From NCBI RefSeq assembly GCF_026810225.1, contig NZ_CP113865.1, forward strand, positions 1,694,001-1,758,000: 64,000 nt of DNA. Reading direction: 5' to 3'. Below are positions 2,406 through 15,403 of the stretch, one piece after another. The stretch's first letter is position 1; every line of letters starts with the position of its first letter. A model generated the notes under the pieces. It ran no database searches, was not told the origin of the DNA, and was given only the letters and a program-made list of their open reading frames with translations. A program made the translations under genes and the position numbers. This stretch comes from Caldicellulosiruptor morganii (GTDB lineage Bacteria; Bacillota; Thermoanaerobacteria; Caldicellulosiruptorales; Caldicellulosiruptoraceae).

Positions 2406-5400
2406 TTATACTATATCCTTTTTTATCCTCATCAAACTATTGAACAAAAGTGGCAGCAGGAAAAATGCAAGCAAAACAAGTCCTATCACAACACACACTG
2501 AAACCTGCATGAGCGTTAAAATCCCGGATGGCAGCATTGCCGCAAACGTGCCTGCCAAAATTATTACAGCCGATGTTACAACATGACCGATGTTTGCCGA
2601 GGTAAACCTTAGCGCCTCTGAAAGCTCCAAATTCCTGTATTCATAAAATCTTATCAGCAAAAATACGCTGTAGTCTATACCCAGAGCCAAAAACACAACA
2701 AAGGTGAAAAATGGCACCGCCCAGTTGAGCGCTTCATATTTAAATATTCCTTTAAAAATCATCTCTGTTATAGAAAGTGCAAGATAGTAATCAATAAAAA
2801 CTATTGCCACAACCGCTGCCGCATTGAATATTGACTTTGAAATAATGAACATCAAAAGCAAAATGCTAATTATCATTATGAGTCTCAAAGTCCTGAAATC
2901 TTTAAAATAGATGCTTTTCAAATCGTGATTGCTTGACGATATTCCGCCAACACCAAATTCAGTGAATTTTGTATCAACAAACTCCAAAGAGTTTTTCAAA
3001 ACCTTTTCAACACTGTCAACAATATCTATTGCTTTGTTTGTATAAGGATTGGTGTCAAGGATAAGGATAATCTTTGTTATTTTTCTGCTCTTATCCATGT
3101 ATGAATCCAGTGCTTTTTCAAAATTACTGCTTTCAAGAGCCCCGGGTGGCACATAGAATATATTTGTGTTTTTGTATCCTTCAAAATAATCTTTGAACTT
3201 TTGCATGGAATCTGTCATTTTTTCAAGGGCATCAGAAATTTGCAAAAGCCCGGACTTCAAACTTGAAATCCCCGTTTCAAGCTGGTTTACTTTCATTAGT
3301 ATCTGTTCTTTTTGAGTATCAAACTCTTTCAGTTTTGAATACATCAGCTCAGTGCCTGAAATAACCTCTTTCTGTCCATTATAAATCCTGGTATACCCAT
3401 CAACAATCTGTCTTTGCGCTGTGGCAAGCTGTTTGGAAGCAGCTGATATAGCATCTATTGAAGAAGAAATAAGCTTTAGCGCTCTGTCGGCTTCGGAAAT
3501 CTTATTAGAAATATTTTGATATTCAGAAGAAAACTCTTTTACCTTAGATACCAGAACATTGCTCTGGTCTTCTATCCTGCTGATTATTTCCAAAGCCATC
3601 AGGTAATTGATATCCTTTGCCAGCTCCGGATACTTACCTGATAGTGCTTTCAAATTTTGACCTGCAGATTTTATGCTTGACACAAGAAGCTCAATTTGAC
3701 TGATATCAAATCCAGCCATTTTATCCTTCAAAGAATTTATAGATGCAGTGTATTGATTATAGAATTCTTTAAAACCAGAAGACAGCCTGCTACTGCCTTT
3801 AGATAGCTCCTCAAGACCTGCATACACTTTTTGCGAGCCATCCAACCCCTTTGCAAAACCATCATTTATCTTTTCAAGTGATACTTTTACAGTATAGATA
3901 CCATTTTCAAGCTGTGAGATTCCTGAAATTAGCTTTTGCACATCAAATTCCTTTGCGGACATATTCAAATTTCTATTTATCTCTTCAATTGCAGAATTGA
4001 CTTTTACAAGTCCATCCTTGACACTGTCAATACCTCTAATAACTGTGTCTGCCTGTTTTGATAAAGTGAACTCTTCTATAACCTTACCCTGCGGTCTTGT
4101 TACAGAATAAACCTCTTTTATCCCCTCTTGTTTGCTCAAAATTTCAGATATTTTTTCAATGCTTGCCAGAGCATCGGATGTTGCCAGGCTGCGATCTGAT
4201 TTTAAATAAATTGTCACAGGAAATGTTTTGCCTATGCTGAAGTTTTTAGAAATAATGTTAAATCCTCTTACTGATTTGTACTTTTCTGAAAGCTCATTTA
4301 AAGTGTTAAATGACAGATCACCACGCACAGATAACAAAAATGGTATGCAAAGTATTACAACAGTAGTAAGAACCACATAAGGATACTTTGTTGACAGTCT
4401 TGCAAAACTTTCCCATAGTTTGCTGTGAGTGTGTTTTATCTCCTTGCTAAAAGGCCACAGAAGATTTTTACCAAAAATTTTTAACACAGCCGGGACCAGA
4501 GTCAAAAGCACAAGCAAAAGCACAAGCACACTTATTGCAATTGCTACCATTGCCCTGAAAAAGTTAAAAGATGCCGCTGCAAATGCCGAAAATCCAGCAA
4601 ATACAGTAAGACAGCTGAATATAACAGTTCTTCCCGCTGTTTTGTAAGTAGTCAATATAGCTTCATCTATGTTTTTGCCGTTTGCAAGTTCCTCTTTGAA
4701 TCTTGAAATAATCAGGAGATTATAATCAGTTCCTATACCAAAGAGCGAAACAACTATAAAAGTCCTTGTAAAGGTATTGATTGGAAAATTGAACCTATCC
4801 GTTAAATGTCCCACCAGGCTCAGAGAAACCAAAAATGAAACGCCTACTGTCAAAAGTGAAACAATCGGAGTCACAGGTGAGCGGAAAACAAGAACCAGAA
4901 CAATAATTATAAAAACAATTGTGATTATATCAGTCTTTTTGACACCATCCTCAGAAGCCTTTACAAAGTCCTGGGTTATTAAATCTCCACCTGTCAGATA
5001 TATTTCCAGGTTTTTTGGTTTTTCAACAGAGTCAATATATCTGTAAATATCATCTCTTATTTCAATAATTTCTCTCTTTGTCTTGTTTACCTGAATGCTT
5101 ACAAGTATAACCTTATTGTTGGGTGATACATAGTAACTTTTAAGTTCTGAATTTTTAAAATGAGTCGAAACATTTCCCACGCTGTATTTCTCTTTTTTAG
5201 TATCAAGTTCATCAATTATCTGCCTTGCAACCGAATAATCTTTTGCTGATAAACCATTTCTGTCATAAAATACTATCGCTATTGTTGAAAGCTTTTTATC
5301 TTTTGGAACACCCTGATATTCTTTTTCCAGAGCTGCTGCAACTTGAGACGGATAAGTGCTGCCAATCCTGGGCTCACCTTTTAAACGCACCAATTTGTTT

Positions 5401-5635: not shown

Positions 5636-6394
5636 TCAGTATTCTATACCAATCTTTTTAGCAAACTCTCTCAACATATTCTCTGTCTCTTTCCTCGACT
5701 TTTCCAGAATCTCTTCATAATCTTTCTTCCATATCTCAACATCCGCTCTGTCTATACCATTCCTCTTCGCATGTACCTTTCCCTCGTCTGTCTCAAAAAA
5801 CCACTTCTCCTTTATCCTCCAGTCATATCTCACATTAAAATACTTTGGTCTGTTGTCAAGTTCAAACTCTTTATACTTTTCCCAAACTTCTCGCCAGTTC
5901 TGTGGATTTTCTCTAAGCTCCCTCAGCAATTCCCTATACACCTTTATCGCTTCCATTGCAAGCTCTTCTCTTGCCTTGAAGTCAAGTATATACCATTTGC
6001 TATAATTCTCAGGATGCTCTGCTATGTCTTTGCTCTTCTCTTTGTAATACCCGGATTCATAATAATCAGCTAAAGCAGAGCATCCATTTCCAATAATGCC
6101 ATATAATTTCCTTATTCTCTTGTCAGTAAGTTTATCTATCGAATTACCAAATAAAGGAATAATATCATCTTCACTTTCAATCTGACTCTTCTGTGTCAAG
6201 CTCTGACTTTCATCTTTTTCGTAAACCACCTCATCCACTCTCTCTCCATTCTCGGATGCCAGTGCTATCTTCTGCACACCTTCAGATACTCCTCTTCCTG
6301 CTCCTGCACTCCCTCTGTTTAGCAAAATTCCTGCTCCTGTTAAACTTAATAAAAATATTCCTACCAGCACCATTATAACCACTCTTCTTTTCAT
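5636..6394 (-). CDS. Array paralog P1: unrecognised exported/membrane-anchored 252-residue protein
   Basis: I do not recognise this family. The N-terminus MKRR plus a hydrophobic stretch (about 5-25, no cysteine) is a signal peptide or signal anchor. A Gly/Ser/Glu-rich linker (about 28-75) follows, then a charged, mostly helical domain (about 85-252) with a conserved SKDIAEHPE motif, RELRENPQ.WREVWEKY and a C-terminal KKIGIEY. P1 carries block type A at residues 72-107 (EDDIIPLFGNSIDKL, containing one Cys at 105) and the KWFFET-type block near 197-213. It has its own likely promoter and a GAGAGGTG ribosome site. Last gene of the array. An immunity or inhibitor partner of the neighbouring amidase is possible but only a hypothesis. 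Confidence 0.8.
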   Translation of the reverse strand: MKRRVVIMVLVGIFLLSLTGAGILLNRGSAGAGRGVSEGVQKIALASENGERVDEVVYEKDESQSLTQKSQIESEDDIIPLFGNSIDKLTDKRIRKLYGIIGNGCSALADYYESGYYKEKSKDIAEHPENYSKWYILDFKAREELAMEAIKVYRELLRELRENPQNWREVWEKYKEFELDNRPKYFNVRYDWRIKEKWFFETDEGKVHAKRNGIDRADVEIWKKDYEEILEKSRKETENMLREFAKKIGIEY

Positions 6395-6416: not shown

Positions 6417-6453
6417 ATTATTTTGAACTTACCCTGTATAATATTACCCAGTT
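6417..6453 (-). repeat. Remnant of amidase 3' end in front of P1
   Basis: The minus strand reads in frame as NWVILYRVSSK and stop, identical to the last codons of both amidase genes, although no amidase gene is present here. Similar remnants precede P2, P4 and P5. Confidence 0.7.
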
Positions 6454-6466
6454 TGCAATTCTGCAA
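6438..6466 (-). promoter_or_regulatory. Likely P1 promoter
   Basis: TTGCAG (6461-6466), a 17-base spacer and TATTAT (6438-6443) on the minus strand. The -10 box lies inside the amidase-tail remnant. The same arrangement is present before P4 and P5 and, altered, before P2. Confidence 0.45.
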
Positions 6467-6668
6467 CTATTTCACTTTCAACTTTTTCCAATAAATTATT
6501 CCCCTGCCATTACATAAAGCTTCATCTGACAAACTTACATCTTACAAAATCTGCTTTATTTTATTATAACAGCTTCTCTGTAACATATCAATAAAAACTA
6601 ATTTCTCTTCAATCAATATTTTGATTTTTGTATATCTTAAATCAATCCAACAAAATCAAATACAAAAA

Positions 6669-6702
6669 AGCTTTTGTGAAGGTTTTTGCCCTCACAAAAG
6701 CT
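6669..6702 (-). terminator. Terminator hairpin after P2
   Basis: AGCTTTTGTGAAGG / CCCTCACAAAAGCT with one mismatch, followed by a T-run on the minus strand. Array copy 2. Confidence 0.75.
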
Positions 6703-6718
6703 CTCCTAAATATTACAC

Positions 6719-7477
6719 TCAGTATTCTATACCAATCTTTTTAGCAAACTCTCTCAACATATTCTCTGTCTCTCTCCTCGACTTTTCCAGAATCTTTTCA
6801 TAATCCCTCTTCCATATCTCAACATCCGCTCTGTCTAACTTTATTCCATTAGCCTCCATCTGCCTCTTCCCTTCCTCACTATTCAAAAACCACTCCTCCT
6901 TTATCCTCCAATCATAATCTACATTAAAATACTTCGGTCTAATGTCAAGTGTAAACTCTTTATACTTTTCCCAAACTTCTCGCCAGCTCTGTGGATTTTC
7001 TCTAAGCTCCCTCAGCAATTCCCTATACACCCTTATTGCTTCCATTGCAAGCTGCTCTTTTGCCTTGAATTCAAGTATATACAATTTGCTGTAATTCTCA
7101 GGATGTTCTGCTATATCTTTGCTCTTCTCTTTGTAATACCCGGATTCATAATAATCAGCTATGGGTCCTAAAGAAACTGAAATTATATCATAAATCTTCT
7201 TTACCCGCTCATCAGTAAACCTCTCTGTGGGGTCACCATATATAGCATCTTCCACACTTTCCCCCTGACTCTCCTGTGTCAAATTCTGACTTTCATCTTT
7301 TTCGTAAACCACCTCATCCACTCTCTCTCCATTCTCTGATGCCAGTGCTACTCTCTGCACACCTTCAGATACTCCTCTTCCTGCTCCTGCACTCACTCTC
7401 TTTACTAAAATTCCTGCACCCGTTAAACTTAATAAAAATATTCCTACCAGCACCATTATAACTGCTCTTCTTTTCAT
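6719..7477 (-). CDS. Array paralog P2: unrecognised exported/membrane-anchored 252-residue protein
   Basis: Same architecture as P1: basic start, hydrophobic segment 5-25, variable linker and helical C-terminal domain ending KKIGIEY. It differs in blocks. Residues 72-107 are type B (VEDAIYGDPTERFTDERV, no Cys), followed by SLGPIADYYES. The 175-190 block is the unique TLDIRPKYFNV form, and the 197-220 block is the WFLNSEEGKRQMEANG type with two extra residues. The N-terminal block KRVSAGAGRG/VQRV matches P3 and P6 and not P5, its positional partner in the duplication. Function unknown; a role connected with the adjacent secreted amidase is inferred only from linkage. Confidence 0.8.
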   Translation of the reverse strand: MKRRAVIMVLVGIFLLSLTGAGILVKRVSAGAGRGVSEGVQRVALASENGERVDEVVYEKDESQNLTQESQGESVEDAIYGDPTERFTDERVKKIYDIISVSLGPIADYYESGYYKEKSKDIAEHPENYSKLYILEFKAKEQLAMEAIRVYRELLRELRENPQSWREVWEKYKEFTLDIRPKYFNVDYDWRIKEEWFLNSEEGKRQMEANGIKLDRADVEIWKRDYEKILEKSRRETENMLREFAKKIGIEY

Positions 7478-7795
7478 CTTCTCTCACACCTCTCTTCTCA
7501 TTATTTTGAACTTACCCTGTATAAAATAATCCTTTTTGCAATTCTGCAGCTGCTTCACTTTTAACTTTTCCCAATAAATTATTCCCCTATCACTACATAA
7601 AGCTTCATCTGACAAACTTACATCTTACAAAACCTGCTTTATTTTATTATAACAGTTTTCTCTGTAACATATCAATAAAAACTAATTTCTCTTCAATCAA
7701 TATTTTGATTTTTGTATATCTTAAATCAATCCAACAAAATCAAAAGCTTTTGCGAAGGTTTTTCCCCTCACAAAAGCTCTAATTAAGCAGTGCTC
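7478..7795 (-). repeat. Array spacer repeat between P3 and P2 (copy 2 of 4)
   Basis: About 318 bases like 6395-6718. The amidase-tail remnant (7498-7530) is less well kept: the last codons YRVSSK-stop remain but the preceding NWVIL codons have diverged. No gene seen. Confidence 0.75.
7743..7778 (-). terminator. Terminator hairpin after P3
   Basis: Array copy 3 of the AGCTTTTG.GAAGG hairpin. The loop-side arm here is CCCCTCACAAAAGCT, so the top of the stem is weaker. Confidence 0.7.
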
Positions 7796-8554
7796 TTAGT
7801 ATTCTATACCAATCTTTTTAGCAAACTTTCTCAACATATTCTCTGTCTCTTTCCTCGACTTTTCCAGAATCTTTTCATAATCCTTCTTCCACTTCTCAAC
7901 ATCTGCTCTGTCTATACCATTCCTCTTCGCATGTACCTTCCCCTCTTCTGTCTCAAAAAACCACTTCTCCTTTATCCTCCAGTCATAATCTACATTAAAA
8001 TACTTTGGTCTGTTGTCAAGTTCAAACTCTTTATACTTTTCCCAAACTTCTCGCCAGTTCTGTGGATTTTCTCTAAGCTCTCTCATCAATTCCCTATACA
8101 CCCTTATTGCTTCCATTGCAAGCTGCTCTTCTGCCCTGAATTCAAGTATATACAATTTGCTGTAATTCTCAGGATGTTCTGCTATGTCTTTGCTCTTCTC
8201 TTTGTAATACCCGGATTCATAATAATCAGCTAAAGCAGAGCATCCATTTCCAATAATGCCATATAATTTCCTTATTCTCTTGTCAGTAAGTTTATCTATC
8301 GAATTACCAAACAAAGGAATAATATCATCTTCACTTTCAATCTGACTCTTCTGTGTCAAGCTCTGACTTTCATCTTTTTCGTAAACCACCTCATCCACTC
8401 TCTCTCCATTCTCTGATGCCAGTGCTACTCTCTGCACACCTTCAGATACTCCTCTTCCTGCTCCTGCACTCACTCTCTTTACTAAAATTCCTGCACCCGT
8501 TAAACTTAATAAAAATATTCCTACCAGCACCATTATAACTGCTCTTCTTTTCAT
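7796..8554 (-). CDS. Array paralog P3, directly downstream of amidase copy 1
   Basis: Unrecognised family, same layout as P1. Its start is 23 bases after the amidase stop, behind a GAGAGGTG ribosome site, so it is most likely translated from the amidase transcript. Blocks: N-terminal KRVSAGAGRG/VQRV type, type A at 72-107 as in P1 (including the single Cys), RPKYFNVDYDW at about 182-192 and KWFFETEEGKVHAKRNG at 197-213. It shares long stretches with P1 and not with P6, its positional partner in copy 2, which points to exchange between array members. Confidence 0.8.
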   Translation of the reverse strand: MKRRAVIMVLVGIFLLSLTGAGILVKRVSAGAGRGVSEGVQRVALASENGERVDEVVYEKDESQSLTQKSQIESEDDIIPLFGNSIDKLTDKRIRKLYGIIGNGCSALADYYESGYYKEKSKDIAEHPENYSKLYILEFRAEEQLAMEAIRVYRELMRELRENPQNWREVWEKYKEFELDNRPKYFNVDYDWRIKEKWFFETEEGKVHAKRNGIDRADVEKWKKDYEKILEKSRKETENMLRKFAKKIGIEY

Positions 8555-8577
8555 CTTCTCTCACACCTCTCTTCTCA

Positions 8578-9645
8578 TTATTTTGAACTTACCCTGTATA
8601 ATATTACCCAGTTTTTTGGAGTCGTCCTTTGCTGCAAATATTCAATAAAACTTCTACCATATACAAAATCGTCCGATGAAACAGAATGCTGTGCATATAA
8701 AAGGTCTGTTGATGTCTTGCTGACTATTACCTGTGAATGATAAGCTATGTTATCAGAATAACCTACATGCTGAACAATATCTCCCTCTTTTAAAAAGCCA
8801 AGCACTACACTGCTGAATCTCTCAATTGCATACCACACAGGATATATTCTAATTTGATATGCTCTGTTATACCCTGAACCATCAAAGTTACCCCAGTGCT
8901 GCCTGAAATAATTTGCACCCGTCCATGTTGTACTTCGGTTTGTTGATGTACGGTAAAACCAGTAGTTTGTATTACTTTCTATCCCAGAAGACGAAGAATA
9001 TATCATATTCATGTACCCTGCAAACAATACCTGTGAGGCAAAATTTGTACAATCTCCTCCATAGTTTGCAAAATTAGCAAATGTAATGCCCCTGCATGTG
9101 TAAGTATTTTGGTATGAATAGTTGCTTTTCGCATAATTTACAGCCGCCGCTCTATCATAACCTGAATTTGCATTAGCTGTATTAATTGATGATCTCATCA
9201 ACTGAAGATAATAATTATGTGAACCCGAATGCCCGTATGCACTTGATACCAAAACGTAATAATAACCATTGCTCGGAACTGTATACTGAATAAATTCGTT
9301 CTTACCGGTTGAATTGGTGGATGATGCTACCAAACTCTGTGAGGAATTATACAAATATAGGTTGTAATTTACAGCCTCGTGCGCATTGATAAGGCTTATC
9401 GAAACAATATCACCTGATTTCAAATATACCCTGAAATAATCTTTATCCTGCGAAGGGTTTGTTGTTTGATAAATCAAACCCTTTACAAAATCTCCACAAT
9501 TGATTGCATTTGCTGTTGAAAAACTGTTATTACTCTCCTGCTCTACTATCTCTCTTGCTTTTACAATCTCATTATAGCAAATTATCAATGTAAATGCTAC
9601 AAATAAAATCAAAAATTTTGGAAAATACCGCATAATCCTACTCAT
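8578..9645 (-). CDS. Secreted PPC-domain / Amidase_6-like protein, copy 1
   Basis: About 355 residues. A signal peptide (hydrophobic 10-25, cleavage plausible after IVKA) is followed by a bacterial pre-peptidase (PPC) beta-sandwich (about 38-150: ESNNSFSTANAI, DKDYFRVYLKSGDIVSI, FIQYTVPSNGYYYVLV). Next is an Amidase_6-type papain-fold domain (about 163-355) with GGDCTNFASQVLFAGY (nucleophile Cys near 199) and AYHSQVIV (His near 303). Amidase_6 proteins are predicted cell-wall or peptide amidases of Firmicutes; the substrate is unknown. An upstream in-frame GTG/TTG exists, but the ATG at 9645 is spaced best from AGGGG. P3 follows after 23 bases. Confidence 0.85.
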   Translation of the reverse strand: MSRIMRYFPKFLILFVAFTLIICYNEIVKAREIVEQESNNSFSTANAINCGDFVKGLIYQTTNPSQDKDYFRVYLKSGDIVSISLINAHEAVNYNLYLYNSSQSLVASSTNSTGKNEFIQYTVPSNGYYYVLVSSAYGHSGSHNYYLQLMRSSINTANANSGYDRAAAVNYAKSNYSYQNTYTCRGITFANFANYGGDCTNFASQVLFAGYMNMIYSSSSGIESNTNYWFYRTSTNRSTTWTGANYFRQHWGNFDGSGYNRAYQIRIYPVWYAIERFSSVVLGFLKEGDIVQHVGYSDNIAYHSQVIVSKTSTDLLYAQHSVSSDDFVYGRSFIEYLQQRTTPKNWVILYRVSSK

Positions 9646-9766
9646 CAACACACCCCTCTCACTCTTTGGTATTTTCAGTTTATAAAGTTATCTTTAAAAA
9701 CTTTTTCTTTTGCACAAATATACTTTTACAAATTAAACTCACCTCTTTAGTAAATAATTTACTTTT

Positions 9767-9799
9767 ATTATAGCACAACAACAACAACAACAACAACAA
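9767..9799 (-). promoter_or_regulatory. Amidase copy 1 promoter with (TTG)8 microsatellite in the -35/spacer region
   Basis: On the minus strand TATAAT (9767-9772) is preceded by TGC, an extended -10, and then by eight perfect TTG units (9776-9799). The repeat supplies both the -35 (TTGTTG, for example 9791-9796 with an 18-base spacer) and the spacer. It lies about 120 bases upstream of the amidase start. Confidence 0.65.
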
Positions 9800-9879
9800 T
9801 ATGTAAATTAACTAAAATTACTTTTTTAATTTGTAAAGCTTTAACAAAAACATAATGCAATTCTGTGAAAAAACAAAAA

Positions 9880-9914
9880 AGCTTTTGCGAAGGTTTTTGC
9901 CCTCACAAAAGCTC
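9880..9914 (-). terminator. Terminator hairpin after P4
   Basis: AGCTTTTGCGAAGG / CCTCACAAAAGCT with a T-run on the minus strand. Array copy 4. It separates copy 2 from the amidase copy 1 promoter. Confidence 0.75.
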
Positions 9915-9930
9915 TAATTAAGCAGTGCTC

Positions 9931-10689
9931 TCAGTATTCTATACCAATCTTTTTAGCAAATTCTCTCAACATATTCTCTGTCTCTTTCCTCGATTTTTCC
10001 AGAATCTCTTCATAATCCTTCTTCCACTTCTCAACATCTGCTCTGTCTAACTTTATTCCATTAGCCTCCATCTGCCTCTTCCCTTCCTCACTATTCAAAA
10101 ACCACTCCTCCTTTATCCTCCAGTCATATCTCACATTAAAATACTTTGGTCTGTTGTCAAGTTCAAACTCTTTATACTTTTCCCAAACTTCTCTCCAGCT
10201 CTGTGGATTTTCTCTAAGCTCCCTCATCAATTCCCTGTATACCTTTATCGCTTCCATTGCAAGCTGCTCTCTGCTCTTCCACTCAAGAATATACAATTCA
10301 TCATATTTTTCTGGATGTTCTGCTATGTCTTTAGAGGTTCTCTTCCAAGAATCAGAATAATAAAAGTCTGCTAATGCAGAACTTGAAACTAATATGATAT
10401 CATAAATCTTCTTTACTCGCTCATCAGTAAACTTCTCTGTAGGGTCACCATATATAGCATCTTCCACACTTTCACCCTGACTCTTCTGTGTCAAGCTCTG
10501 ACTTTCATCTTTTTCGTAAACCACCTCATCCACTCTCTCTCCATTCTCGGATGCCAGTGCTATCTTCTGCACACCTTCAGATACTCCTCTTCCTGCTCCT
10601 GCACTCCCTCTCTTTACTAAAATTCCTGCACCCGTTAAACTTAATAAAAATATTCCTACCAGCACCATTATAACTGCTCTTCTTTTCAT
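9931..10689 (-). CDS. Array paralog P4: unrecognised exported/membrane-anchored 252-residue protein
   Basis: Same layout as P1. Blocks: N-terminal KRGSAGAGRG/VQKI type, type B at 72-100, then the type C segment SSALADFYYSDSWKRTSKD with EKYDELYILEWKSREQ (shared only with P6). It also has ELDNRPKYFNVRYDW (shared with P1) and WFLNSEEGKRQMEANG (shared with P2 and P6). It is the positional partner of P1 in the 4.3-kb duplication, yet resembles P1 only in the first and third blocks. Own promoter and amidase-tail remnant upstream. Function unknown. Confidence 0.8.
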   Translation of the reverse strand: MKRRAVIMVLVGIFLLSLTGAGILVKRGSAGAGRGVSEGVQKIALASENGERVDEVVYEKDESQSLTQKSQGESVEDAIYGDPTEKFTDERVKKIYDIILVSSSALADFYYSDSWKRTSKDIAEHPEKYDELYILEWKSREQLAMEAIKVYRELMRELRENPQSWREVWEKYKEFELDNRPKYFNVRYDWRIKEEWFLNSEEGKRQMEANGIKLDRADVEKWKKDYEEILEKSRKETENMLREFAKKIGIEY

Positions 10690-11015
10690 CTTCTCTCACA
10701 CCTCTCTTCTCATTATTTTGAACTCACCCTGTATAATATTACCCAGTTTGCAATTCTGCAACTATTTCACTTCCAACTTTTTCCAATAAATTATTCCCCT
10801 GTCATTACATAAAGCTCCATCTGACAAACTTACATCTTACAAAATCTGCTTTATTTTATTATAACAGTTTTCTCTGTAACATATCAATAAAAACTAATTT
10901 CTCTTCAATCAATATTTTGATTTTTGTATATCTTAAATCAATCCAACAACATCAAATACAAAAAAGCTTTTGCGAAGGTTTTTGCCCTCACAAAAGCTCT
11001 AATTAAGCAGTGCTC
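10690..11015 (-). repeat. Array spacer repeat between P5 and P4 (copy 3 of 4)
   Basis: About 326 bases, nearly identical to 6395-6718 and 11769-12093. Contains the amidase-tail remnant at 10712-10748 and the P4 promoter. No gene seen. Confidence 0.8.
10966..11000 (-). terminator. Terminator hairpin after P5
   Basis: AGCTTTTGCGAAGG / CCTCACAAAAGCT with a T-run on the minus strand. Array copy 5. Confidence 0.75.
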
Positions 11016-11768
11016 TCAGTATTCTATACCAATCTTTTTAGCAAATTCTCTCAACATATTCTCGGTCTCTTTCCTCGACTTTTCTAGAATCTTTTCATAA
11101 TCCTTCTTCCATATCTCAACATCTGCTCTGTCTATACCATTCCTCTTCGCATGTACCTTCCCCTCTTCTGTCTCAAAAAACCACTTCTCTTTTATCCTCC
11201 AGTCATAATCTACATTCAATATCTTAGGTCTGAATTCAAGTTTAAAATTTTTATACTTTTCCCAAACTTCTCGCCAGCTCTGCGGATTTTCTCTAAGCTC
11301 CCTCAGCAATTCCCTATACACCCTTATTGCTTCCATTGCAAGCTCTTCTCTTGCCTTGAAGTCAAGTATATACCATTTGCTGTAATTCTCAGGATGTTCT
11401 GCTATGTCTTTGCTTTCTCTCTTATATAACTCAGATTCATAATAATCAGCTATGGGTCCTAAAGAAACTGAAATTATATCATAAATCTTCTTTACTCGCT
11501 CATCAGTAAACCTCTCTGTAGGGTCACAGTATATAGCATCTTCTACACTTTCACCCTGACTCTCCTGTGTCAAGCTCTGACTTTCATCTTTTTCGTAAAC
11601 CACCTCATCCACTCTCTCTCCATTCTCTGATGCCAGTGCTATCTTCTGCACACCTTCAGATACTCCTCTTCCTGCTCCTGCACTCCCTCTGCTTACCAAA
11701 ATTCCTGCTCCTGTTAAACTTAATAAAAATATTCCTACCAGCACTATTATAACTGCTCTTCTTTTCAT
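11016..11768 (-). CDS. Array paralog P5: unrecognised exported/membrane-anchored 250-residue protein
   Basis: Same layout as P1 but two residues shorter, because the 197-220 block is the WFFETEEGKVHAKRNG-IDRADVE form. Blocks: SRGSAGAGRG/VQKI N-terminus, type B at 72-107 with a Cys (DAIYCDPTERF) where the others have Gly, then SLGPIADYYESELYKRE as in P2. The middle block KLEFRPKILNVDYDW is shared with P6. A GGCGGGTGAGAG sequence replaces the usual GAGAGGTGTGAGAG ribosome region, so its translation strength may differ from the others. Function unknown. Confidence 0.8.
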   Translation of the reverse strand: MKRRAVIIVLVGIFLLSLTGAGILVSRGSAGAGRGVSEGVQKIALASENGERVDEVVYEKDESQSLTQESQGESVEDAIYCDPTERFTDERVKKIYDIISVSLGPIADYYESELYKRESKDIAEHPENYSKWYILDFKAREELAMEAIRVYRELLRELRENPQSWREVWEKYKNFKLEFRPKILNVDYDWRIKEKWFFETEEGKVHAKRNGIDRADVEIWKKDYEKILEKSRKETENMLREFAKKIGIEY

Positions 11769-12093
11769 CTTCTCTCACCCGCCTTTTCTCATTATTTTGA
11801 ACTCACCCTGTATAATATTACCCAGTTTGCAATTCTGCAACTATTTCACTTCCAACTTTTTCCAATAAATTATTCCCCTGTCATTACATAAAGCTCCATC
11901 TGACAAACTTACATCTTACAAAATCTGCTTTATTTTATTATAACAGTTTTCTCTGTAACATATCAATAAAAACTAATTTCTCTTCAATCAATATTTTGAT
12001 TTTTGTATATCTTAAATCAATCCAACAAAATCAAATACAAAAAAGCTTTTGTGAAGGTTTTTGCCTTCACAAAAGCTCTCCTAAATATTACAC
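11769..12093 (-). repeat. Array spacer repeat between P6 and P5 (copy 4 of 4)
   Basis: About 325 bases, almost identical to 10690-11015. Amidase-tail remnant at 11791-11827. No gene seen. Confidence 0.8.
12044..12079 (-). terminator. Terminator hairpin after P6
   Basis: AGCTTTTGTGAAGG / CCTTCACAAAAGCT, a perfect 14-base stem with a T-run on the minus strand. Array copy 6. Confidence 0.8.
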
Positions 12094-12852
12094 TCAGTAT
12101 TCTATACCAATCTTTTTAGCATACTTTCTCAACATATTCTCTGTCTCTTTCCTCGACTTTTCCAGAATCTTTTCATAATCCCTCTTCCATATCTCAACAT
12201 CTGCTCTGTCTAACTTTATTCCATTAGCCTCCATCTGCCTCTTCCCTTCCTCACTATTCAAAAACCACTTCTCTTTTATCCTCCAGTCATAATCTACATT
12301 CAATATCTTAGGTCTAAATTCAAGTTCAAAATTTTTATACTTTTCCCAAACTTCTCGCCAGTTCTGTGGATTTTCTCTAAGCTCTCTCATCAATTCTTCA
12401 TACACCTTTATCGCTTCCATTGCAAGCTGCTCTCTGCTCTTCCACTCAAGAATATACAATTCATCATATTTTTCTGGATGTTCTGCTATGTCTTTAGAGG
12501 TTCTCTTCCAAGAATCAGAATAATAAAAGTCTGCTAATGCAGAACTTGAAACTAATATAATATCATAAATCTTCTTTACTCGCTCATCAGTAAACCTCTC
12601 TGTGGGGTCACCATATATAGCATCTTCCACACTTTCCCCCTGACTCTCCTGTGTCAAATTCTGACTTTCACCTTTCCCATAAATCACTTCATCCACTCTC
12701 TCTCCATTCTCTGATGCCAGTGCTACTCTCTGCACACCTTCAGATACTCCTCTTCCTGCTCCTGCACTCACTCTCTTTACTAAAATTCCTGCACCCGTTA
12801 AACTTAATAAAAATATTCCTACCAGCACCATTATAACTGCTCTTCTTTTCAT
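12094..12852 (-). CDS. Array paralog P6, directly downstream of amidase copy 2
   Basis: Same layout as P1 and 23 bases after the amidase stop, as for P3. Blocks: KRVSAGAGRG/VQRV N-terminus (as P2 and P3), a diverged linker (EVIYGKGESQNLTQ), type B at 72-100 and the type C segment with DSWKRTSKD and EKYDELYILEW (as P4). ELEFRPKILNV is close to P5, and WFLNSEEGKRQMEANG matches P2 and P4. The C-terminus LRKYAKKIGIEY is slightly different. Function unknown; the amidase linkage suggests partner proteins. Confidence 0.8.
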   Translation of the reverse strand: MKRRAVIMVLVGIFLLSLTGAGILVKRVSAGAGRGVSEGVQRVALASENGERVDEVIYGKGESQNLTQESQGESVEDAIYGDPTERFTDERVKKIYDIILVSSSALADFYYSDSWKRTSKDIAEHPEKYDELYILEWKSREQLAMEAIKVYEELMRELRENPQNWREVWEKYKNFELEFRPKILNVDYDWRIKEKWFLNSEEGKRQMEANGIKLDRADVEIWKRDYEKILEKSRKETENMLRKYAKKIGIEY

Positions 12853-12875: not shown

Positions 12876-13943
12876 TTATTTTGAACTTACCCTGTATAAT
12901 ATTACCCAGTTTTTTGGAGTCGTCTTCTTCTGCAAATATTCAATAAAACTTCTACCATATTCAAAATATTCCGGTAATACAGAATGCTGTGCATATAAAA
13001 GGTCTGTTGATGTCTTGCTGACTATTACCTGTGAATGATAAGCTTCGCAGTTATCATACCGTACATGCTGAACAATATCCCCCTCTTTTAAAAACCCCAG
13101 CACTACACTGCTGAATCTCTCAATTGCATACCACACAGGATATATTCTCACCTGATATGCTCTGTTATACCCTGAACCATCAAAGTTACCCCAGTGCTGC
13201 CTGAAATAATTTGCACCCGTCCATGTTGTACTTCGGTTTGTTGGTGTCCGGTAAAACCAGTAGTTTGTATTACTTTCTATCCCAGAAGCCGAAGAATATA
13301 TCATATTCATGTACCCTGCAAACAATACCTGTGAGGCAAAATTTGTACAATCCCCTCCATCGTTTGCAAAATTAGCAAATGTGATGCCCCTGCATGTGTA
13401 CTTATCTTTGTATGAATAGTTGCTTTTCGCATAATTTACAGCCGCCGCTCTATCATAACCTGAATTTGCATTAGCTGTATTAATTGATGATCTCATCAAC
13501 TGAAGATAATAATAATGTGAACCCGAATGCCCGTATGCACTTGATACCAAAACGTAATAATAACCATTGCTCGGAACTGTGTATTGAATAAATTCGTTCT
13601 TACCGGTTGAATTGGTGGATGATGCTACCAAACTCTGTGAGGAATTATACAAATATAGGTTGTAATTTACAGCCTCGTGCGCATTTATAAGGCTTATTGA
13701 AACAATATCGCCTGATTTCAAATATACCTTGAAATAATCTTTATCCTGCGAAGGGTTTGTTGTTTGATAAATCAAACCCTTTACAAAATCTCCACAATTG
13801 ATTGCATTTGCTGTTGAAAAACTGTTATTACTCTCCTGCTCTACTATCTCTCTTGCTTTTACAATCTCATTATAGCAAATTATCAATGTAAATGCTACAA
13901 ATAAAACCAAAAGTTTTGGAAAATACCGCATAATCCTACTCAT
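12876..13943 (-). CDS. Secreted PPC-domain / Amidase_6-like protein, copy 2
   Basis: Nearly identical to the protein at 8578-9645 with the same signal peptide, PPC domain and catalytic GGDCTNFAS and YHSQVIV motifs. Differences cluster in the catalytic domain, around the region before the active His (QHVRYDNCEAYHSQ versus QHVGYSDNIAYHSQ) and just after QHSV (LPEYFEYG versus SSDDFVYG). Surface or specificity loops may therefore be diversifying while the core is kept. Same ATG choice as copy 1. P6 follows after 23 bases. Confidence 0.85.
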   Translation of the reverse strand: MSRIMRYFPKLLVLFVAFTLIICYNEIVKAREIVEQESNNSFSTANAINCGDFVKGLIYQTTNPSQDKDYFKVYLKSGDIVSISLINAHEAVNYNLYLYNSSQSLVASSTNSTGKNEFIQYTVPSNGYYYVLVSSAYGHSGSHYYYLQLMRSSINTANANSGYDRAAAVNYAKSNYSYKDKYTCRGITFANFANDGGDCTNFASQVLFAGYMNMIYSSASGIESNTNYWFYRTPTNRSTTWTGANYFRQHWGNFDGSGYNRAYQVRIYPVWYAIERFSSVVLGFLKEGDIVQHVRYDNCEAYHSQVIVSKTSTDLLYAQHSVLPEYFEYGRSFIEYLQKKTTPKNWVILYRVSSK

Positions 13944-14064: not shown

Positions 14065-14097
14065 ATTATAGCACAACAACAACAACAACAACAACAA
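14065..14097 (-). promoter_or_regulatory. Amidase copy 2 promoter with (TTG)8 microsatellite
   Basis: Same arrangement as at 9767-9799: TGC-TATAAT (-10 at 14065-14070) preceded by eight TTG units (14074-14097 on the minus strand). Confidence 0.65.
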
Positions 14098-14177
14098 TAT
14101 GTAAATTAACTAAAATTACTTTTTTAATTTGTAAAGCTTTAACAAAAACATAATGCAATTCTGTGAAAAAACAAAAA

Positions 14178-14211
14178 AGCTTTTGTGAAGGTTTTTGCCC
14201 TCACAAAAGCT
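14178..14211 (-). terminator. tyrS terminator, array hairpin copy 7
   Basis: AGCTTTTGTGAAGG / CCCTCACAAAAGCT with a T-run on the minus strand. The last tyrS codons (AAG CTT TTG TGA) form part of the 5' arm of the stem. Confidence 0.8.
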
Positions 14212-15403
14212 TTATTTTTACAAACTTGAGTTTACCCACCTGCAAAACATCGCCATTTTGAAACTCAATGTCAAGCTGATTTACTTTTTCACCGTTTAGC
14301 TTCACAGCACCGCTTTTGATAAGTCTCATGCCCTCACTTGTCGATGAGCAAAGCTTTCTTTCAACCATAAACCTTGGCAGATACACCTTTGAATCTTTTA
14401 GCTCAACTTCCGGTATATCATCGGGTATGTCTTTTTTCTGGAACACCTTTATAAACTCCTCTTCGGCTCTTGCTGCTGCCTCATCTCCATGGTAAAGCTT
14501 TACAATCTCCCTTGCAAGTCTCATCTTTGCATCTCTTGGATGCAAAGTCCCCTCTTCAAGCTTTCTTTTTATCTCCTCAATCTCTTCGGGCTCAACGTCA
14601 GTTGCAAGCTCATAGTATGAAATCATAACCTCATCGGGAATTGACATGACTTTCCCATACATCACATTTGGCGGCTCGTTTATACCAATGTAATTGCCAA
14701 GGCTTTTGCTCATTTTATTGACACCATCTGTGCCAACCAAAATTGGCATCAAAAGAGCAACCTGAATGGTCCTGCAACCATATTCTCTCTGCAGAGTTCT
14801 TCCCATCAAAATATTGAATTTCTGCTCTGTTGCGCCAAGCTCAACATCAGCTTCAATCACAACAGAATCATACCCCTGCATAAGCGGGTAGAAAAACTCA
14901 TGTATTGAAAGTGGCAGGTTCTTTTCCATTCGCTGGCGAAATGTCTCCCGCTCAAGCATTCTTGCAACAGTGTATTTTGATGCCAGGTTTATAACATCAA
15001 GAAAGTTCATAGGCTCAAGCCATTCGCTGTTGTAGCGAACAGTAGTCTTCTGAGGGTCAAGGATTTTCAAAACCTGCTGCTTGAACGGCTCAGCGTTTTT
15101 TTGAACCTCTTGTTTTGTAAGCTGCTTTCTTGTCTCAGACTTACCCGTCGGGTCACCTATCATAGCGGTAAAATCACCGATAATAAGGATTATGTTGTGC
15201 CCCAAATCCTGAAGCTGTTTGAGCTTTCTCAGAACAACTGCATGTCCAAGATGAACATCCGGCACGTTCGGGTCAAGCCCAAGTTTTATATTCAAAGGTC
15301 TGTCCTGCTTCAGTTTTTCAACAAGCTCCTCTTCAGTGATTATCTCAGCAGCACCCTTTTTGAAAACCTTCAGTTGATGTTCGATGTCCATTTTAAAGCT
15401 CAT
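14201..15403 (-). CDS. tyrS: Tyrosyl-tRNA synthetase
   Basis: A class I synthetase of about 400 residues that charges tRNA-Tyr in the cytosol. HLGH (class I HIGH motif, about 52-55) and KMSKS (about 230) are present, with a C-terminal S4-like RNA-binding domain (about 335-398, LIKSGAVKLNGEKV). Length and spacing fit the TyrZ-like bacterial form. Starts 17 bases after murJ, so probably the last gene of the pheA-to-tyrS run. The ATG at 15403 sits very close to AAAGGGG; an internal ATG at 15391 would be better spaced. Its stop codon lies inside the terminator stem. Confidence 0.95.
   Translation of the reverse strand: MSFKMDIEHQLKVFKKGAAEIITEEELVEKLKQDRPLNIKLGLDPNVPDVHLGHAVVLRKLKQLQDLGHNIILIIGDFTAMIGDPTGKSETRKQLTKQEVQKNAEPFKQQVLKILDPQKTTVRYNSEWLEPMNFLDVINLASKYTVARMLERETFRQRMEKNLPLSIHEFFYPLMQGYDSVVIEADVELGATEQKFNILMGRTLQREYGCRTIQVALLMPILVGTDGVNKMSKSLGNYIGINEPPNVMYGKVMSIPDEVMISYYELATDVEPEEIEEIKRKLEEGTLHPRDAKMRLAREIVKLYHGDEAAARAEEEFIKVFQKKDIPDDIPEVELKDSKVYLPRFMVERKLCSSTSEGMRLIKSGAVKLNGEKVNQLDIEFQNGDVLQVGKLKFVKIKLL

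Follow-up and report, generated by a model that had tools for sequence, protein, structure and literature searches.

The 64,000-nucleotide window analysed here (Caldicellulosiruptor morganii, contig NZ_CP113865.1) contains on its minus strand an array of two secreted amidase genes (A1, A2) and six copies of a second gene, P, in the order A2-P6-P5-P4-A1-P3-P2-P1 (Table 1). The array lies between a gene at 15403–14201, which we take from its sequence to encode TyrRS, and an MMPL-family gene (5495–2406), and the whole genome (2.475 Mb, a single contig) has these two amidases of the A1/A2 type, these six P genes and no others of either kind. Genes were named by similarity, with MMPL and amidase assigned through Pfam. 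A first-pass annotation had reported that P1, P2, P4 and P5 have no amidase gene in front of them and are preceded instead by the 3′ end of one (NWVILYRVSSK and the stop codon), in decayed form at P2; a listing of the open reading frames (ORFs) and the tail sequences themselves bear this out. The explanation we favour, and consider fairly likely as a whole, is that the tail is a relic of an amidase gene, retained because it borders on the leader and the beginning of P, and that a single founding unit was copied and shuffled; the amidase would be a toxin, P its immunity protein, and the solitary P genes orphan immunity genes.

The stretch upstream of a solitary P consists of the final 36 bases of the amidase gene, stop codon included, and a 23-base leader. 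The same tail (AACTGGG...AAATAA) lies inside the intact A1 (8578–8613, upstream of P3) and A2 (12876–12911, upstream of P6). P1 and A1 share 60 identical bases (the tail, the leader and one more), beyond which identity falls to 22 of 100 compared positions. The tails of P4 and P5 each carry one identical single change, the leader of P5 has four additional changes, and the tail of P2 has five mismatches and would read KRIILYRVSSK; the block formed by tail, leader and the 5′ end of P is almost invariant across P2, P3, P4 and P6. Genome-wide, the 36-mer with up to three mismatches occurs five times, every time preceding P (none for a reversed-pattern control), and a looser tail pattern finds 10 places among 12 genomes of the genus, each directly upstream of a P gene (again none for the control). 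The placement of the tail is not due to chance. No copy was found before an unrelated gene in these searches, the observation that the first-pass annotation had singled out as speaking for a free-standing element, and derivation of the tail from amidase 3′ sequence is supported.

The 12 genus genomes (labelled G000–G011) contain 17 matches to P. Six are directly behind an intact amidase (P3, P6, those of G003, G007 and G005, and a second locus of G008), nine are near full length without one (P1, P2, P4 and P5, two in G002, and one each in G008, G011 and G009, that of G011 containing one TAG), and two are fragments (G001, G009). All six intact amidases have P immediately behind them. There are several instances of a partially deleted amidase. 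In G008 the remnant spans codons 218–356, its DNA being 99% identical to G007 there, and in G009 codons 298–356. At the second G002 locus about five amidase codons are left, and a comparison with the end of the intact G008 amidase over 18 bases, up to the penultimate base of the stop codon, shows 16 matches. A different pattern is seen in G002 and G011, where scraps of the leader, signal and PPC regions (5′ and middle parts) remain and the amidase 3′ end is missing up to a point some 20 bases short of P. Judged from these remnants, the amidase has been lost in place in relatives while P stays. Because the G002 and G011 P genes have no 3′ tail, the tail is one of several scars and is dispensable for P.

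Upstream of the tail, the four solitary units have one common junction and spacers that, counted with the terminator side, are 92–98% identical across some 260 bases. A single founding event followed by duplication is thus simpler than four losses, and appears the simpler history on this sequence comparison. The first-pass proposal that each paralog lost its own amidase therefore stands in part: loss of the amidase with retention of P occurs in relatives, and the shared junction and spacer argue against four separate losses here. An nhmmer profile built from six amidase units readily recovers the decayed amidases of relatives, and with it homology ends at the tail and leader, with nothing convincing within the spacers, neither amidase leader nor coding sequence. 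Local alignment of the spacer against 16 regions (amidase leader, coding, and P–MMPL intergenic) did not show its origin either: for each of the amidase leaders of the window and G005, 4 of 200 shuffles scored as high, and for the P–MMPL regions 39–165 of 200 did. When the 70 bases before the tail (the best of four lengths tried) are aligned from the tail outwards, the score against A2 is reached by 8–27 of 3240–3757 composition-matched genomic windows and by 1–6 of 300 shuffles, and that against A1 by 41–49 of 300; this hints weakly at decayed A2, not at A1 or the amidases of relatives. Weak short matches aside, the 12 genus genomes have the spacer at these four places only; its source was not found, and the founding event may have been either an in-place deletion or a fusion to another promoter region. 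The reading of the tail as an amidase relic draws on its exclusive association with P, the ending of homology at the tail and leader, the single junction, and the in-place remnants in G008, G009, G002 and G011.

Each solitary P looks like a separate transcription unit because it has its own promoter-like site and terminator-like hairpin. A consensus scan of 8.9 kb gave 20 promoter-like sites against a shuffle mean of 29, and single sites, being fewer than in shuffles, therefore carry little meaning. The four best predicted promoters (TTGATA-17/18-TATAAT with a TG extension, 11 of 12 matches) lie one per spacer, about 170 bases upstream of P. No promoter-like site was called in the tail in the same scan, and at P2 the TATTAT of the tail is replaced by TATTTT. 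Ten terminator-like hairpins were found against 2.9 expected, and every P as well as TyrRS is followed by one. P3 and P6 are probably transcribed together with their amidases.

Several other histories of the tail can be considered. Four independent amidase losses, with the tail providing the -10 box of each paralog's promoter, would fit the presence on the minus strand of TATTAT 17 bases after TTGCAG; we regard this as very improbable given the common junction and spacer, and the suggestion that the kept piece holds the -10 box fails, since all four spacers have strong predicted promoters, none is called in the tail, the motif is missing in P2, and P lacks the tail altogether in G002 and G011. 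A promoter role for the tail was thus rejected. Capture by the amidase of a free-standing regulatory element would account for a stretch that precedes genes without an amidase, and seems more remote still: the stretch is found only before P genes, it is an in-frame amidase end with conservation at the protein level in relatives, and it decays in P2. This candidate was rejected on its confinement to P genes.

A more serious possibility, which we nevertheless find somewhat unlikely, is that P was copied without the amidase, recombination in the tail, leader and P 5′ block having set it behind another promoter segment, so that nothing was lost in place and the tail is the edge of the copied piece. 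The abrupt start of the shared block at 60 bases, the absence of recognisable amidase 5′ or coding sequence from the spacer, and the near invariance of the block among P2, P3, P4 and P6 are what this would predict; the in-place loss displayed by relatives and the slight resemblance of the 70 bases before the tail to decayed A2 argue the other way. In the explanation we favour, a P gene would have parted once from its amidase, taking along about 60 bases of 5′ flanking sequence, and joined another promoter segment, the spacer; the unit of promoter-spacer, tail, P and terminator would then have been copied to four, and recombination via the near-identical tail, leader and P 5′ block and the repeated terminators would shuffle variable blocks among the paralogs.

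Shuffling of this kind is apparent in the P genes, which are mosaics. Nucleotides 180–300 unite P1 and P3 against the others, 300–380 group P4 with P6, and 600–660 separate P1, P3 and P5 from P2, P4 and P6; in 14 of 15 pairs the longest shared runs of polymorphic sites were matched by 0–1 of 2000 permutations. In the middle block P1 has the version of P3 and P4 that of P6; a third version, most of which is common to P2 and P5, has no corresponding amidase in this genome. The ratio of nonsynonymous to synonymous substitution rates is 0.16–0.48 in 25 P pairs, orphans included, and by this measure the P genes are under purifying selection.

P is confined to this genus among 37 genomes of the class, aside from weak matches in two others, and was not found in plasmids or in a wider set of genome contigs (from which near relatives were possibly left out). 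Searches of Pfam and NCBIfam found no family for it, and 13 members searched against Pfam gave nine weak families with no Imm model among them. An AlphaFold2 model of P3, which rests on six near-identical sequences, has an all-helical domain at residues 83–248 (predicted local distance difference test score, pLDDT, about 80–97 from residue 91) downstream of a hydrophobic N-terminus and a long disordered stretch, and P is predicted to be a membrane-anchored helical protein. Foldseek gave no PDB match to this model with E below 1, and the best VIA-align matches, to BAR domains (Z of 7.0), are in the range usual for helical bundles. We note that the P proteins of the window have TGAG in place of a cysteine motif of relatives (FAGC/LTGC), which we take to be lipobox-like, and P may have changed from a lipoprotein to a plain membrane anchor.

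The amidases match Amidase_6 (PF12671) with 80.7 bits (A1) and 81.5 bits (A2) against a gathering score of 23.2. Pfam at E up to 1 gives PPC and Amidase_6 only, with no LXG or WXG N-terminal domain. GGDC and YHSQ stretches are conserved, for which we assume a catalytic role, YHSQ (304–307) presumably holding the catalytic histidine. The differences between A1 and A2, 23 residues in all, fall mostly in loops around YHSQ, clustering at 297–302 and 325–330 on its two sides; codons 291–345 have 15 nonsynonymous and 4 synonymous differences, and codons 1–290 have 12 and 13. The predicted amidase structure (mean pLDDT 41) was not used. In G007 all eight informative loop sites of the amidase are of the A2 version, and in aligned columns 100–160 the accompanying P agrees with P6 at 52 of 56 positions and with P3 at 39 of 56, a pattern that fits matched amidase–P specificity in one independent comparison. 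A protein of Paenibacillus larvae phages (e.g. Diva, L115) with an Amidase_6 domain 36% identical to that of A1 lies near lysis genes and transposases.

In our proposed explanation the amidase would be a secreted toxin that cuts the peptidoglycan of other cells, and P a membrane-anchored immunity protein that blocks it outside the membrane; the middle helices of P would match the loops around the presumed catalytic histidine, and P1, P2, P4 and P5 would be orphan immunity genes. The anatomy of the array, the asymmetry between P and amidase, the mosaics and the purifying selection are the observed part of this mechanism. Toxicity, inhibition, specificity and the immunity role of P are the part that we infer. 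Several points weigh against it. The match of loops and middle block is that of one independent species pair, with G003, G007 and G008 near-identical to one another, and could have arisen by luck about one time in two or three, and the C-terminal block of P does not track the amidase loops, that of G007 resembling P3. Amidase_6 occurs in ordinary genes too and is present in 34 of the 37 class genomes, and P lacks a Pfam, NCBIfam or PDB relative. With the spacer at its four places and no source for it found, an in-place deletion is no more than possible. The alternative is an amidase that is an ordinary cell-wall remodelling enzyme with P as a surface anchor, chaperone or regulator. We think this doubtful: common Amidase_6 genes, uncharacterised Bacillus subtilis genes included, and the lack of a known immunity relative of P are in keeping with it, but copies of P persist, multiply and diversify in the absence of the enzyme, no intact enzyme is found without P, the locus is patchy among relatives (see below), and the shuffling of P resembles that of known immunity arrays (PMC9484751).

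The interval between TyrRS and MMPL is empty (96–115 bases) in G001, G004, G006 and G009. It is occupied in the other eight genomes, G000, G002, G003, G005, G007, G008, G010 and G011 (in G003 the TyrRS side is outside the stretch read). G004, whose MMPL protein is the nearest (97% identical) among six genomes searched, is one of the empty ones. In G010 (L114:2558-5540) the interval contains two cassettes, each made up of an unrelated protein of 266–271 residues, hydrophobic at its N-terminus, and a partner. Cassettes of this type recur in G003, G005, G007 and G011; they share with the amidase cassette its (TTG)n-TATAAT-like leader and its kind of terminator. All six intact first genes have the partner; in G002, and at a single G003 site, an intact partner is preceded by just a C-terminal part of the first gene. 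Both cassettes, by these sequences, lose their first gene by decay and keep the second, an asymmetry that we count as support for the explanation favoured here. Pfam, NCBIfam, PHROGs and PDB searches with the 266- and 119-residue proteins were uninformative. A tentative wider picture, nearly an even call, would make this interval a hot spot, specific to the genus, for cassettes of Sec-exported antagonism proteins that have a common promoter-leader and terminator. One would be a peptidoglycan amidase paired with P as a new family of immunity proteins, all-helical and anchored in the membrane, and the other the unrelated 266-residue secreted protein with its partner of about 119 residues; the toxins would decay, and the immunity genes would stay, with dated scars and their own promoters, recombining so as to protect against loop variants of the amidase that are no longer produced by the cell. 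The secreted proteins of G010 (L114) are alike over most of their length and divergent near the C-terminus, like polymorphic toxins.

Immunity arrays with comparable features have been described. Recombining arrays are reported for EsaG and TipC (PMC9484751). Staphylococcus aureus EsaD is a nuclease secreted by a type VII system, with tandem non-identical esaG immunity paralogs reshuffled by recombination (PMC9484751); the P array is similar in its tandem non-identical paralogs, shared homology blocks, recombination and, as we propose, proximity to a polymorphic toxin, but has a putative amidase with an N-terminal hydrophobic segment in place of a type VII nuclease, and each solitary P has its own promoter-like site, terminator-like hairpin and amidase scar. 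Streptococcus TelC is a lipid II phosphatase exported by a type VII system, and TipC is its immunity protein, anchored in the membrane and active on the outer side; there are several paralogs, some non-protective, and orphan tipC genes are reported (PMC6193138). An envelope-attacking toxin with membrane-anchored immunity outside the membrane and paralogs is what we propose for amidase and P, whereas TipC has an alpha/beta crescent fold with a seven-stranded sheet (PMC6193138) and the P model has helices only. Polyimmunity loci consist of tandem paralogs from a single family, interpreted as a stock of protection against foreign toxins, and are characterised as never interrupted by toxin genes and probably co-transcribed (PMC3482391). 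P1, P2, P4 and P5 are likewise tandem paralogs without their own toxin, but two enzyme genes interrupt the array, with A1 inside it, and a terminator-like hairpin follows every P. Amidase_6 proteins have been described as amidase effectors (PMC10318531); the family is the same, and the PPC fusion and genus-restricted helical partner are different. A partner gene directly downstream, the usual mark of a toxin–immunity pair, is present at all six intact amidases of the genus. By analogy, the array would be an addition to the known recombining and orphan immunity arrays, with a new protein family. A literature search on orphan immunity, polyimmunity and Amidase_6 found no publication on this locus. 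If the explanation is correct, the origin of orphan immunity is visible stepwise, with intact pairs, half-deleted enzymes and solitary partners within one genus; P would be a new family of helical immunity proteins directed at peptidoglycan amidases, from a thermophilic genus of Gram-positive type, and specificity swapping could be tested with four natural middle-block variants.

Table 1. Features of the amidase–P array (window coordinates)
Feature	Position	Strand	Basis
A2, secreted amidase (PPC + Amidase_6), 357 residues, partner of P6	12876..13949	-	PF12671 1e-22, PF04151 9e-9
P6, partner protein of A2	12094..12852	-	ORF, P family
Spacer upstream of P5, own predicted promoter TTGATA-18-TATAAT (11966-11937)	11829..12036	-	
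Amidase 3′ tail upstream of P5, 1 mismatch	11792..11827	-	
P5, solitary	11016..11768	-	ORF, P family
Spacer upstream of P4, own predicted promoter 10887-10858	10750..10960	-	
Amidase 3′ tail upstream of P4, 1 mismatch	10713..10748	-	
P4, solitary	9931..10689	-	ORF, P family
A1, secreted amidase (PPC + Amidase_6), 357 residues, partner of P3	8578..9651	-	Pfam
P3, partner protein of A1	7796..8554	-	ORF, P family; AlphaFold2 model helical from residue 83
Spacer upstream of P2, own predicted promoter 7675-7646	7538..7743	-	
Decayed amidase 3′ tail upstream of P2, 5 mismatches	7501..7536	-	
P2, solitary	6719..7477	-	ORF, P family
Spacer upstream of P1, own predicted promoter 6591-6563	6455..6660	-	
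Amidase 3′ tail upstream of P1, identical	6418..6453	-	
P1, solitary	5636..6394	-	ORF, P family
(TTG)8 tract adjoining TATAAT (9767-9772), A1 leader; A2 counterpart at 14074-14097	9776..9799	-	
Terminator-like hairpin 3′ of P1	5583..5620	-	
Further terminator-like hairpins (every P and TyrRS)	6663-6708, 7743-7780, 9878-9915, 10963-11000, 12038-12083, 14176-14213		

An Rfam scan of the window gave tRNAs only. The last 24 codons of TyrRS recur at the opposite side of the island (L037:4112-4183, L038:6308-6379 and L039:6618-6689), and the P terminators resemble that of TyrRS; together these suggest that the island entered through recombination at the TyrRS 3′ end. The (TTG)8 tracts lie directly upstream of the amidase TATAAT, and their length and interruptions are variable among the leaders of relatives. 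Varying (TTG)n length could change promoter spacing and hence amidase expression.

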